From positions 248,001 through 312,000 of the forward strand of contig NZ_JACHDA010000001.1 of the NCBI RefSeq assembly GCF_014207235.1: DNA of 64,000 nucleotides, given 5' to 3'. A program made the position numbers and the translations under genes. This document shows positions 55,153-61,850 of the stretch, in pieces. Origin of the DNA: Sphingopyxis sp. JAI128 (lineage in GTDB: Bacteria > Pseudomonadota > Alphaproteobacteria > Sphingomonadales > Sphingomonadaceae). How positions within the stretch are numbered: the stretch's first letter is position 1; the number at the start of each line of letters is the position of its first letter. The notes under the pieces are model-generated. The model made no database searches and was not told the DNA's origin. It saw only the letters and a program-made list of their open reading frames with translations.

Positions 55153-55638
55153 TTATCGATAGGGCGCGTCGGCGGCAAGATTCGCCGCGATCGCGCGTTC
55201 CCATTTGTCGCCATTGGCGAGCAGCTTGGCCTTGTCATAGAGCAGTTCTTCGCGCGTTTCGGTCGCAAACTCGAAGTTCGGCCCCTCGACCACCGCATCG
55301 ACCGGGCAGGCTTCCTGACAGAAACCGCAATAGATGCATTTGGTCATGTCGATGTCGTAGCGCGTCGTGCGGCGGCTGCCGTCGTCGCGCGGCTCGGCCT
55401 CGATCGTGATCGCCTGCGCCGGGCACACCGCTTCGCACAGCTTACACGCGATGCAGCGTTCCTCGCCGTTCGGATAGCGACGCAGCGCATGCTCGCCACG
55501 GAAGCGCGGCGACAGCGGGTTCTTCTCGAACGGATAGTTGATCGTCGCCTTGGGCTTGAAGAAATATTTGAGCGTGAGGGCGTGCGCCTTCACAAATTCC
55601 CACAAGGTGAAGCTTTTGACGAGATGGGCGATGGTCAT
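55153..55638 (-). CDS. nuoI: NADH-quinone oxidoreductase subunit I
   Basis: 161 residues from the ATG at 55638. Two ferredoxin motifs, [12 protein letters not shown] and [12 protein letters not shown], bind the N6a and N6b clusters that pass electrons toward quinone. The N-terminal amphipathic helix ([20 protein letters not shown]) places it at the membrane. The start overlaps the preceding 128-residue gene by ATGA rather than nuoH directly. Confidence 0.97.
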
Positions 55639-56021
55639 TGCACGCTCTCCTGCGGAGTCCTTTCGGATTCCTTCAATTGGCAAGTGCCCTTCGAGGTTTC
55701 AGTGAAGGTGTTCAACCCATCATCCTGGACATCGACCCAACCGATACGAATTCCGTACGCGAGCAAATCATCGGACAGACGAGCGATCATGAATCTACTT
55801 TCGGATTCCTTCTTCAGCCCCACGACCCATTCAGGCTCCGCATTTGGTTCGCCGACAAATAACATCGTCGGTCGAGACGTAACTCGTGTTGCCAAACTCG
55901 TTGTCAACTCGTTGGGGATTGGCACGTTGATCATAGCCACAGAGTCCTGCGGTACTGGAGTGCCATCAGGCGCAGCTGTAAGCCCACACGATAAGATGGC
56001 AGCGGCAATCGACAGGCTCAT
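55635..56021 (-). CDS. Unknown 128-residue protein inserted between nuoH and nuoI
   Basis: The ATG at 56021 overlaps the nuoH stop (ATGA, 56018-56021) and the stop overlaps the nuoI start (55635-55638). The N-terminus [20 protein letters not shown] resembles a short lipoprotein or signal sequence with Cys12. The rest is soluble, with [40 protein letters not shown] and a second Cys near the C-terminus (KGTCQLKE). I do not recognise a family. Third codon positions look clearly less GC-rich than in neighbouring nuo genes. An exported protein made from the complex I transcript is possible. Confidence 0.75.
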
Positions 56022-57064
56022 GCCCCATACCTCGTCAGCATCAGCCAGCCGGAAATCAGGAAGATCCAGATCAGCGAGATCGGCAGGAACACCTTCCAAC
56101 CCAGCCGCATCAGTTGGTCATAGCGGTAGCGCGGGACGGTCGCCTTGACCCAGCTGAAGACGAAGAAGAAGAACAGGATCTTCGCGAACAGCCAGATGAT
56201 GCCGGGAACGGCATAAAGCGGCGCCCAGTCGATCGGCGGCAGCCAGCCGCCCCAGAACAGCACCGCATTCAGCGTCGCCATCAGCAGCACATTGGCATAT
56301 TCGCCGAGCCAGAACAGCGCGAAGCTCATCGACGAATATTCGGTCTGATAGCCCGCGACGAGCTCCGATTCCGCTTCGGTCAAGTCGAACGGCGCGCGCG
56401 CGGTTTCGGCGAGCGACGAGATCAGGAACATCACCGCGAGCGGGAAAAGCAGCAGGTTGAATCCAAAGGCGTTGACGAAGCCGAGGCCATGGCCCTGCTG
56501 CGCTTTCACGATCTCGTTCATGTTGAAGCTGTCGGCGAAGAGCACGACGCCGATCAGGATGAACCCGATCGACACTTCATAGCTGATCATCTGTGCTGAG
56601 GCGCGCATCGCCGAAAAGAAGGGATATTTCGAGTTCGACGCCCAGCCCGACAGGATCACGCCATAGACGCCAAGCGACGAGATCGCGAGAATGTAGAGCA
56701 ATCCGACATTGATGTCGGCGAGCACCGCGCCCGAATTGAACGGGATCACCGCCCAGGCGAGCAGCGCGACGGTGAAGGTGATGATCGGCGCGATCAGAAA
56801 CAGGCCCCTGTTGGCGCCCGACGGGATGATCGTTTCCTGCAGGAACACCTTCAGACCGTCGGCGAACGACTGCAGCAGGCCAAAGGGGCCGACGACGTTC
56901 GGGCCGCGGCGCAGTGCGATCGCCGCCCAGATCTTGCGGTCGGCATAGATGATCATCGCGACCGCGAGCATCAGCGGCAGCGCGATGAGCAGGATGCCTG
57001 CAATCGTCGCGACACCCCACGCCCAGTTCGGGTCCATGCCCCACGAGATAAAGGTCTCGGTCAT
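56018..57064 (-). CDS. nuoH: NADH-quinone oxidoreductase subunit H
   Basis: 348 residues, eight membrane helices. Signatures are [30 protein letters not shown] and the [20 protein letters not shown] region, whose Glu residues line the quinone chamber. It connects the peripheral arm to the proton pumps. It is coupled upstream to a 45-residue gene (ATGA at 57061-57064) and downstream to the 128-residue gene. Confidence 0.97.
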
Positions 57065-57198
57065 TTCCGCGCCCCGTCCTCGTTGCGCCAGCCATTATGC
57101 GGGCCGGGCTTTTCGGACTTGCGCGGATTGAACCCGCGCCACACCGAATAGCCCATCCCGACCAGCAACACGCTGGCAATCGCATGCACCGGGGTCAT
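57061..57198 (-). CDS. Small 45-residue protein between nuoG and nuoH
   Basis: The ATG at 57198 overlaps the stop of the preceding 92-residue gene, and its TGA overlaps the nuoH start (57061-57064). The product has one hydrophobic stretch ([19 protein letters not shown]) followed by a basic, Pro/Asn-rich tail ([19 protein letters not shown]). A single-pass membrane protein is likely. It is too small to judge by composition alone, but the double 4-bp overlap supports translation. Unknown function. Confidence 0.6.
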
Positions 57199-57473
57199 TC
57201 CCCTGCTCCTCTAATTGGCAGTCGAGCGTCGAGAAGCCACAAAAGCGCCGCACCGAAGAAGGGCCAAGCAGCCGACGAAAGACCCGACGCCAGCGCCGTA
57301 AGCACCATCAAAATTGCGCTCGGACTATGTGATTCATAGGGCGAAGCAACGCCGCTGGACACCATGTCCCACTGGCTGCCAAGCACGCCAGCGAAGGTCA
57401 TCACGGCAACGATAATCGCTACCCAAAACAGGATCAGCGACCCATTTTGCATGGATTTTACGTAGAGGCTCAT
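57195..57473 (-). CDS. Unknown 92-residue membrane protein between nuoG and nuoH
   Basis: The ATG at 57473 overlaps the nuoG stop (57470-57473) and its stop overlaps the 45-residue gene. Two hydrophobic segments: LILFWVAIIVAVMTFAGVLG (about 13-32) and AILMVLTALASGLSSAAWPF, which continues to ALLWLL. Between them is a short polar loop (DMVSSGVASPYESHSPS). The gene is less GC-rich than nuoG and nuoH. I do not recognise a family. Confidence 0.72.
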   Translation of the reverse strand: MSLYVKSMQNGSLILFWVAIIVAVMTFAGVLGSQWDMVSSGVASPYESHSPSAILMVLTALASGLSSAAWPFFGAALLWLLDARLPIRGAGE

Positions 57474-60880: not shown

Positions 60881-61555
60881 TCATGCCTCCCACTCCTTCC
60901 GATAGTCGTGGTTGGCCTTCACCATTTCCTTTAACGTCGTCGGGCCGCCCTCGGGCTCGCTCGTATGACGCCCGGCAATCTGCGTCCCCGCCTTCGGCGC
61001 ATCACCGGCGGCGAGCGCGTCAAGGATGCGCGTCATGCTATCGTAGTCGAGATCTTCGTAATTATCGTCGTTGATCTGGACCATCGGCGCGTTGGTGCAG
61101 GTGCCCATGCATTCGACCTCGGTCAGCGTGAACAGGCCGTCGGGCGTCGTCTTGCCCTTGGTCATGCCGCGGTTCTTGCACGCGGCCATGACATCGTCCG
61201 ACCCGCGCAGCAGGCACGGCGTCGTGCCGCACACCTGCACATGATAACGGCCGACGGGCACGAGATTGTACATCGTGTAGAAGGTCGCGACCTCATAGGC
61301 GCGCATGAACGGCATATCGAGCTGCGCCGCGACGAACTCGATAACCGGCACGGGCAGCCAGCCCTGCGTCTGCGTCTCGGCGCCGACCTGGCGCTGCGCG
61401 AGGTCGAGCAACGGCATTACCGCCGAACGCTGGCGTCCCGCGGGATAGCGTGCGATCACGGCCTTCGCCTTCTCGGCATTCTCCGCCGTCCACGCAAAAT
61501 TGCCCCAGCGGGCGCGGGTTTCGGCTTCGTCAGGAATTTGGGGTGCATCAGCCAT
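60881..61555 (-). CDS. nuoE: NADH-quinone oxidoreductase subunit E
   Basis: 224 residues. The thioredoxin-like 2Fe-2S domain has cysteines in VQVCGTTPCLLRGS and VECMGTCTNAPMV, binding the N1a cluster. N-terminal helices ARWGNFAWTAENAEKAKAVI precede. The C-terminus is longer than in E. coli and carries a Gly/Pro/Lys-rich tail ending NHDYRKEWEA. It forms the NADH module with NuoF and NuoG. The start overlaps the end of the 100-residue gene by 8 bp. Confidence 0.96.
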   Translation of the reverse strand: MADAPQIPDEAETRARWGNFAWTAENAEKAKAVIARYPAGRQRSAVMPLLDLAQRQVGAETQTQGWLPVPVIEFVAAQLDMPFMRAYEVATFYTMYNLVPVGRYHVQVCGTTPCLLRGSDDVMAACKNRGMTKGKTTPDGLFTLTEVECMGTCTNAPMVQINDDNYEDLDYDSMTRILDALAAGDAPKAGTQIAGRHTSEPEGGPTTLKEMVKANHDYRKEWEA

Positions 61556-61850
61556 TCGCTGTAATCTTTCCCGCGTAGAATGTCTTTTCGGCTCTGAGCA
61601 AACGCTGCCTCCGCTTACGCAGATAAAAGCCTGCGGCGGTCAGGAACAGGATTGCGGCCGAGTTTTGAAGGGCAGTGTTCATCGGCATCTGACCCAGTGC
61701 GTACAATTGCCAAATAGCCGTTGCAGCCACCACGGCAGCGCCGAGGAACAAATAGCGCTCCCAAAAAGCCGAAGGCGCCTGCTTTGGGGCGCGTCCGAAT
61801 TTCACGTCCTGCGCGTGAACCTGATTCCAGAAGCGGGGGAGATCGCTCAC
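61548..61850 (-). CDS. Unknown 100-residue membrane protein between nuoD and nuoE
   Basis: The ATG at 61850 overlaps the nuoD stop (61847-61850) and its 3' end overlaps nuoE by 8 bp. Two hydrophobic helices, [20 protein letters not shown] (about 33-52) and [18 protein letters not shown] (about 60-77), are followed by a basic stretch [12 protein letters not shown]. The N-terminus is soluble ([16 protein letters not shown]). Composition is less GC-rich than nuoD and nuoE. No family recognised. Confidence 0.75.

Follow-up and report, generated by a model that had tools for sequence, protein, structure and literature searches.

A gene between nuoH and nuoI of Sphingopyxis sp. JAI128 as a probable allele of an exchangeable slot in sphingomonad complex I operons

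Complex I operons are usually treated as compact core gene clusters. Why, then, does a small additional gene stand between nuoH and nuoI in the nuo operon of Sphingopyxis sp. JAI128? We analysed this gene in a 64-kb stretch of the genome (NZ_JACHDA010000001.1), called here the window, to which all positions refer. The original prediction had described its 128-residue product as exported-looking, unlike any canonical complex I subunit, and as a candidate complex I-associated factor. Our comparisons suggest that the gene is probably one allele of an exchangeable plug-in slot, located between nuoH and nuoI in sphingomonads. The features of the slot in the window, with selection given as the ratio of non-synonymous to synonymous divergence (dN/dS) and open reading frames abbreviated as ORFs, are the following.

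55635..56021, minus strand: slot gene between nuoH and nuoI, 128 amino acids (aa); ATG at 56021-56019, TGA at 55637-55635; dN/dS 0.15 against the copy in genome G092
56018..56021, minus strand: ATGA, overlap of the nuoH stop and the slot-gene start; same ORF start in 21/21 filled genomes of the genus
55635..55638, minus strand: ATGA, overlap of the slot-gene stop and the nuoI start, read from the sequence
56030..56033, minus strand: GAGG in the last nuoH codons, Shine-Dalgarno-like, for the slot gene, and for nuoI in empty genomes; duplex energy with the anti-Shine-Dalgarno (anti-SD) sequence -7.3
55647..55651, minus strand: AGGAG in the 3' end of the slot gene, Shine-Dalgarno-like, for nuoI; duplex energy -7.4
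55971..56021, minus strand: short hydrophobic leader, approximately residues 1-17, without Lys or Arg; putative export signal
55986..55988, minus strand: Cys12 codon; a Cys in the N-terminal region is found in 19/19 non-redundant slot proteins of the genus
55680..55682, minus strand: Cys114 codon; a Cys in the C-terminal region is found in the same 19/19 proteins
56018..57064, minus strand: nuoH, upstream neighbour
55153..55638, minus strand: nuoI, downstream neighbour

The basic description of the gene was confirmed. It overlaps the end of nuoH and the start of nuoI by exactly 4 bp each, with ATGA at both ends on the minus strand. The product has the predicted hydrophobic N-terminus, Cys12 and a second Cys near the C-terminus, and Cys12 and Cys114 are its only cysteines. 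The codons are less GC-rich than those of the neighbours, as had been claimed, with a third-position GC content (GC3) of 0.586 compared to 0.865 for nuoH and 0.801 for nuoI.

A search of 80 genomes of the genus detected nuoI in 75, each of which was read across the nuoH-nuoI junction. The slot was empty in 54 of these, nuoH and nuoI overlapping directly by ATGA, and filled by one ORF in 21 (gap 364-793 bp, ORF 122-265 codons). All 21 slot ORFs start at the identical base on the nuoH stop codon (-3), 12 with ATG and nine with GTG, and end within approximately 10 bp of the nuoI start. A canonical subunit would be present in essentially all genomes that have the enzyme, whereas the slot is filled in 21/75; the gene is missing from most of the related nuo operons, but not from all of them. 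BLAST at E<1e-5 grouped the window protein with that of G092 (83% identical), L031 with L040 and L063, and L044 with L052 (26%), and left 14 of the 21 proteins without a partner. The genomes with these mutually unmatched slot genes nevertheless have NuoH and NuoI proteins of about 92-100% identity. The GC3 of the insert was below that of both neighbours in 21/21 genomes (mean 0.615 versus 0.880 and 0.808). Among 80 named sphingomonad loci, a gap of at least 40 bp between nuoH and nuoI was found in 15, eight of which carry cargo of the two-Cys type.

Two side observations concern the same junction. In Sphingomonas caeni (L134, 11050-12721) the slot holds three tandem genes of 246, 139 and 173 aa; the product of the first contains four Cys, which resemble two domain units. 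The nuoH-nuoI inserts of L148 and L178 look less like genes than like short dispersed repeats in which ORFs can be read.

The window protein and its 83% identical counterpart in G092 occupy the same nuoH-nuoI slot. Their genes differ by 36 synonymous changes over 92 sites and 23 non-synonymous changes over 292 sites (Fisher p 2e-11), and the resulting dN/dS of 0.15 stands beside 0.13 for nuoH and 0.09 for nuoI of the same two genomes. For L040 and L063 the slot genes gave 0.027 (Fisher 6e-16). Values for L031 against L040 and L063 were 0.31 and 0.44 at high divergence, and between L044 and L052 synonymous sites were saturated. Slot cargo in the two close pairs is under purifying selection, far from neutral. 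Since dN/dS against its one close relative is 0.15, the window ORF is a real gene, and the near-neutral ratio that would have spoken against the original prediction was not observed.

The boundary of the slot is sharp. In 67 of the 75 genomes (all except the divergent or odd L095, L096, L100, L101 and L103, and L039, L042 and L090 without the anchor motif), NuoH ended in TRYS in 46/46 empty genomes and in TRYG, TRYGA, TRYAA or TRYGG in 21/21 filled ones. NuoH of L039, L042 and L090 also ends in Ser, which gives 49 empty core genomes, all with Ser. The Ser rule applies to the genus core, because in the five divergent empty genomes nuoH ends in a GCA codon. The smallest uncorrected p for association of a flanking site with slot state was 2.5e-4 in nuoH and 2.3e-4 in nuoI over several hundred variable sites, and we found no strong association in nuoI, nor in nuoH upstream of its final one or two codons. 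These terminal codons track slot state and therefore form the boundary.

The same codons contain the GAGG motif. Mean anti-SD pairing was -7.14 at the slot start (n=21) and -7.23 at nuoI of empty genomes (n=54), whereas nuoI behind a slot gene showed weaker and variable pairing (-5.60, n=21); in this comparison the nuoI start was set by rule and is doubtful for L104. As GAGG pairs equally at the slot start and at nuoI of empty genomes, the slot gene seems to take the initiation site of nuoI. ATGA overlaps couple translation by termination-reinitiation, according to the available part of PMC6728339. Premature termination within the slot frame would then be expected to lower NuoI.

Despite their divergence the slot proteins share an architecture. 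After removal of the near-duplicates L063 and L085, 19/19 proteins had a Cys both among the 45 N-terminal and among the 30 C-terminal residues, a conserved pair that position shuffles reached in 2.7 proteins on average and never in all 19 (0/20000). Exactly two Cys were present in 17 of the proteins, three in one and four in one. In cargo proteins of at least 100 aa from the named loci, the pattern occurred in 10/12 from the nuoH-nuoI junction versus 8/67 from other nuo junctions (p 1.6e-6), all eight of the latter from nuoD-nuoE. A hydrophobic leader was detected in 21/21 slot proteins with a Kyte-Doolittle window. The sequences and structure models are consistent with an exported protein whose putative beta domain would be closed by one disulfide. 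The window product is exported-looking, as claimed before, in the sense that it has a hydrophobic leader and the conserved Cys pair; its leader is short and devoid of Lys and Arg.

Cys12 was also considered as a lipoprotein Cys, which was rejected as the main interpretation. The sequence ILSC12 at residues 9-12 is a poor lipobox with Leu at -2, no Lys or Arg precedes it in the n-region, and the first Cys lies anywhere between residues 12 and 44 in different members. By eye, L058 alone of the 21 is lipoprotein-like (LSAC with Arg).

Searches for known relatives revealed no Pfam, NCBIfam or PHROGs family for the window protein at E up to 10 and no significant PDB match. Searches with 34 members against Pfam, NCBIfam and PDB likewise gave no match of meaningful score, the best Pfam matches being those of single members to unrelated families (E 0.022-0.089); in PADLOC-DB the same members gave a lone Cas5 match (E 0.037), taken as chance. 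In agreement with the original prediction, the protein therefore resembles no subunit or accessory family of complex I in Pfam, NCBIfam or PDB, and no known family unrelated to respiration was found for it either. A homologue search of the window protein against the genome contigs detected none, and a comparison with 60 relatives returned the protein itself and weak scattered matches (E 0.0016 or worse) that were not followed as homologues. In a class-wide profile search one of 289 matched (E 0.0044) with two internal stops, which we took as chance. Profile A2, the close profile of the window gene, found its two known copies in 397 genomes of the family and no further confident match, apart from a marginal one with an internal stop (E 0.0088).

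When the 80 genus genomes were searched with a profile of ten slot proteins, 12 matches were obtained, spread over 11 genomes. Nine of these are members of the model, one is partial and was taken as chance, and two are copies of a 203-aa relative outside nuo. The two copies (L198, 131-739; L199, 1465-2073) lie in G085 and G098, both of which have an empty nuoH-nuoI slot, and by eye their neighbourhoods differ, with a malic enzyme in one and an aldo-keto reductase in the other. The partial match, to a 207-aa protein outside nuo (L200, E 0.0068), was not counted as a relative.

The slot states were placed on a tree of nuoH and nuoI. This tree of 86 rows is a gene tree, not a species tree; its chosen outgroup is not one clade, it includes 11 hand-chosen of the 80 named loci, and the repeat genome records L105, L106, L107 and L175 were omitted. 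Slot states are scattered over it: presence required 20 changes compared to 22.4 for shuffled labels, and 72/500 shuffles were as low. Close relatives can have opposite states (L034 empty, L076 filled; end branches 0.015 and 0.017), and the window and G092 share an allele yet sit in different parts of the tree.

Alleles of the slot occur beyond the genus. A profile of eight slot proteins, with up to nine candidates scored per genome, matched in at least 8 of the 397 family genomes, and 7/8 matches lie at the nuoH-nuoI junction. Five are outside the model: G313, G324, G522 and G220, from four other genera, at nuoH-nuoI, and G352 elsewhere. Most family matches therefore lie between nuoH and nuoI, the position that the original prediction proposed to check, whereas G352 and L198/L199 do not. 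Two Sphingopyxis alleles each resemble an allele of another genus more than one another: identity is 38% between L044 and the G137 allele, and also 38% between L052 and the G324 allele. Between L044 and L052 the slot proteins are 23% identical and NuoH about 96%, while NuoH of the cross-genus partners is about 80% identical. Forcing L044 and L052 together was 48.0 log-likelihood units worse (approximately unbiased test, p-AU 1e-5), for a group that was named after the pairwise scores had been seen. Since L044 and L052 are each nearer to the allele of another genus, allele lineages cross genera at one fixed site.

Taken together, the slot is either empty or occupied from the nuoH stop to approximately the nuoI start by one gap-filling ORF (three in one Sphingomonas). 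Its cargo retains the hydrophobic leader and the two terminal Cys, and in most pairs the middle has diverged beyond BLAST recognition. The slot protein would be made from the nuo mRNA by a ribosome-binding site that otherwise serves nuoI, and translation of nuoI would come to need an open slot frame. This dependence may shield the cargo from loss by nonsense or frameshift mutations and leave precise excision or replacement as the easy exit. Alleles may travel by homologous recombination, for which conserved nuoH and nuoI would serve as flanks.

A co-adapted subunit is disfavoured because diverse slot proteins stand beside a near-invariant complex I, because the empty state is frequent and because lineages cross genera. 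These three properties resemble loci under diversity-favouring selection. Of the original prediction we retain a genuine, selected gene with a probably exported, uncharacterised product and with translational coupling to nuoH and nuoI. If complex I-associated factor is taken to mean a subunit, it is not supported, given 54/75 empty slots, 14/21 partnerless proteins and no strong flank association, although the protein may still have a physical role at complex I. As to its role, our tentative best guess is an envelope function under diversity-favouring selection, which might for example protect the periplasm against lytic enzymes, toxins or phage of foreign origin. We would prefer such an envelope or conflict role to that of a complex I subunit.

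Several points weigh against this interpretation. PADLOC, phage and plasmid searches found no link to toxins, phage, plasmids or defence, so that the conflict role is argued from the evolutionary pattern. L032, L058, L064, L087, L088, L091, L097 and L104 have no good sequence link to other slot proteins, and from the sequences a common ancestry of all slot proteins is not established. Relatives of slot proteins lie outside the slot in two Sphingopyxis genomes (L198/L199) and in another genus (L209). Leaders are short and mostly lack Lys and Arg, which makes their status as signal peptides unsure. The two AlphaFold models consist mostly of strands and are poor (mean pLDDT, the predicted local confidence, 54.9 and 56.7; pTM, the predicted global score, 0.48). 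With both of these poor models Foldseek found no fold match in PDB (best E 0.31 and 0.35), and weak entries for avidin-like and lipocalin-like barrels were not used. The exchange of alleles by homologous recombination is itself something that we infer. Finally, synonymous divergence (dS) between the window and G092 (L030/L085) is 0.55 in the slot and thus not lower than in nuoH (0.39) and nuoI (0.31); for this pair, old vertical descent with losses therefore fits as well.

A single vertically inherited gene that evolves very fast and was lost many times independently, without horizontal exchange, would agree with these dS values, with the shared architecture and with the ease of precise loss between two ATGA sites. 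We nevertheless regard it as unlikely, as it has to accommodate L044 and L052, which at about 96% NuoH identity have slot proteins only 23% identical and are each closer to an allele from a genus with about 80% NuoH identity. The scattered distribution on the nuoH-nuoI tree speaks against it too, and the Ser-ending nuoH of the 49 empty core genomes fits one spreading empty allele better than many deletions.

We find it equally doubtful that the gene encodes a species-specific accessory protein of complex I, that is, a supernumerary subunit or assembly factor on the periplasmic side docking on NuoH and its neighbours. Disulfide-bonded accessory subunits occur on the intermembrane-space side of mitochondrial complex I, and such a protein would be like them in position, not in ancestry. 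Location and ATGA coupling at nuoH and nuoI, purifying selection on the slot gene and the position of most profile matches from other genera at the same junction are all compatible with it, and ATGA-coupled pairs often encode subunits of one complex, as the title of PMC10666635 indicates. This has to be set against the empty slot in most genomes of the genus, the mutually unrecognisable slot proteins beside near-invariant NuoH and NuoI, and the non-slot relatives in two genomes whose own slot is empty. In addition, nuoH and nuoI sites past the last codons show no strong link to slot state, in a comparison that among the subunits covered NuoH and NuoI. A neutral passenger without protein function, its frame intact only because nuoI translation needs it, would explain purged stops and frameshifts, free sequence divergence between species and low GC3 in 21/21, but is very improbable in view of dN/dS values of 0.15 and 0.03 in two close pairs, Cys at both ends in 19/19 proteins and recognisable homologues in other genera.

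Other junctions of the nuo operon are variable as well. We read 41 Sphingopyxis operons in full, 40 of the 75 on long contigs and the window. Inserts of more than 170 bp were found at C-D in 0, D-E in 31, E-F in 4, F-G in 29, G-H in 11 and H-I in 14, and after nuoI at I-J in 1 (repeat-like) and at J-K, K-L, L-M and M-N in 0. Inserts of more than 200 bp in the 80 named loci showed C-D 7/67, D-E 32/69, E-F 16/69, F-G 29/73, G-H 8/79 and H-I 10/80, and none among the 74-78 loci read at each of the five junctions downstream of nuoI; part of the C-D and G-H inserts resemble gene extensions or repeats, not genes. The type of cargo varies with the junction: F-G has many four-Cys proteins that look exported, H-I has the two-Cys type, and D-E has small membrane proteins and the YNAQDADAYVALMTDD family. 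The window nuo operon itself contains three slot-type genes, at H-I, G-H and D-E, the latter two being as follows.

57195..57473, minus strand: sporadic slot gene between nuoG and nuoH, 92 aa, two hydrophobic segments; matched in 5/80 genus genomes including the window
61548..61850, minus strand: sporadic slot gene between nuoD and nuoE, 100 aa; matched in 4/80 genus genomes including the window

By their coordinates, matches of both genes adjoin nuoI on the same contig wherever both positions are known. Tentatively, the peripheral-arm half of the sphingomonad nuo operon may be a rack of independent plug-in sites (D-E, F-G, G-H, H-I), each with its own cargo class. H-I would then hold ancient, trans-generic alleles of exported disulfide proteins, kept diverse by conflict involving toxins, lytic enzymes or phage. 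Their expression through complex I would be constitutive, and capture of the nuoI ribosome-binding site would protect them from decay.

Some inserts at these junctions are noted for themselves. At D-E of many sphingomonads (L121, L123, L175) a protein of 110-116 aa with the motif YNAQDADAYVALMTDD recurs, which may be SnoaL/NTF2-like. The 4276-bp nuoF-nuoG junction of Sphingomicrobium nitratireducens (L146) contains five consecutive ORFs of 242-268 aa, each with Cys-x35-Cys spacing twice, like the four-Cys proteins in many nuoF-nuoG junctions. The inserts of L238, L245 and L246 (nuoG-nuoH) and of L249 (nuoI-nuoJ) appear to be short dispersed repeats read as ORFs.

A base-exact, refillable slot would show that accessory genes can persist in essential operons without promoters or mobility genes, with translational coupling as their safeguard. 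The slot also provides a protein family without catalogued relatives, and close relatives with empty and filled slots, such as G016 and G061, offer a natural experiment in which function is directly testable. A literature search found no account of inserts at nuo junctions in sphingomonads, which is weak evidence as most subscription journals were outside the search. A survey of complex I clusters groups nuo hits with up to 250 bp between them, and the words 'insert', 'intervening' and 'hypothetical' are absent from the part of its text that was available (PMC12361115).

Extra genes in alphaproteobacterial nuo operons and mosaic operons are both known kinds. Unidentified reading frames (URFs) are present in the nuo/nqo operons of Paracoccus denitrificans and Rhodobacter capsulatus and are, like the slot genes, extra genes of unknown function between alphaproteobacterial complex I genes. 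As far as the descriptions can be compared, URFs are fixed features of single species, whereas the sphingomonad cargo at one junction varies or is missing within a genus. Lysozyme inhibitors of the MliC/PliC type are small exported beta domains with Cys near both ends. The slot proteins share the Cys near both ends and would be like them if they are small exported beta domains; however, their Pfam profile was unmatched by the 34 members, as were NCBIfam and PDB, and the models are too poor for a comparison of folds. In mosaic operons and gene displacement in situ, as they are termed in citing papers, an orthologue or xenologue usually takes the place of a core gene. The slot would be like them in that operon composition is altered in place by horizontal exchange, and it is unlike them in that a dispensable site with a conserved core gene on either side gains, loses or regains cargo of unlike proteins. 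Finally, the ATGA overlaps on either side of the slot gene, and those joining nuoH to nuoI where the slot is empty, correspond to the termination-reinitiation coupling described in PMC6728339; in contrast to that coupling, an accessory gene here stands between the coupled core genes and appears to take the ribosome-binding site of the downstream gene.
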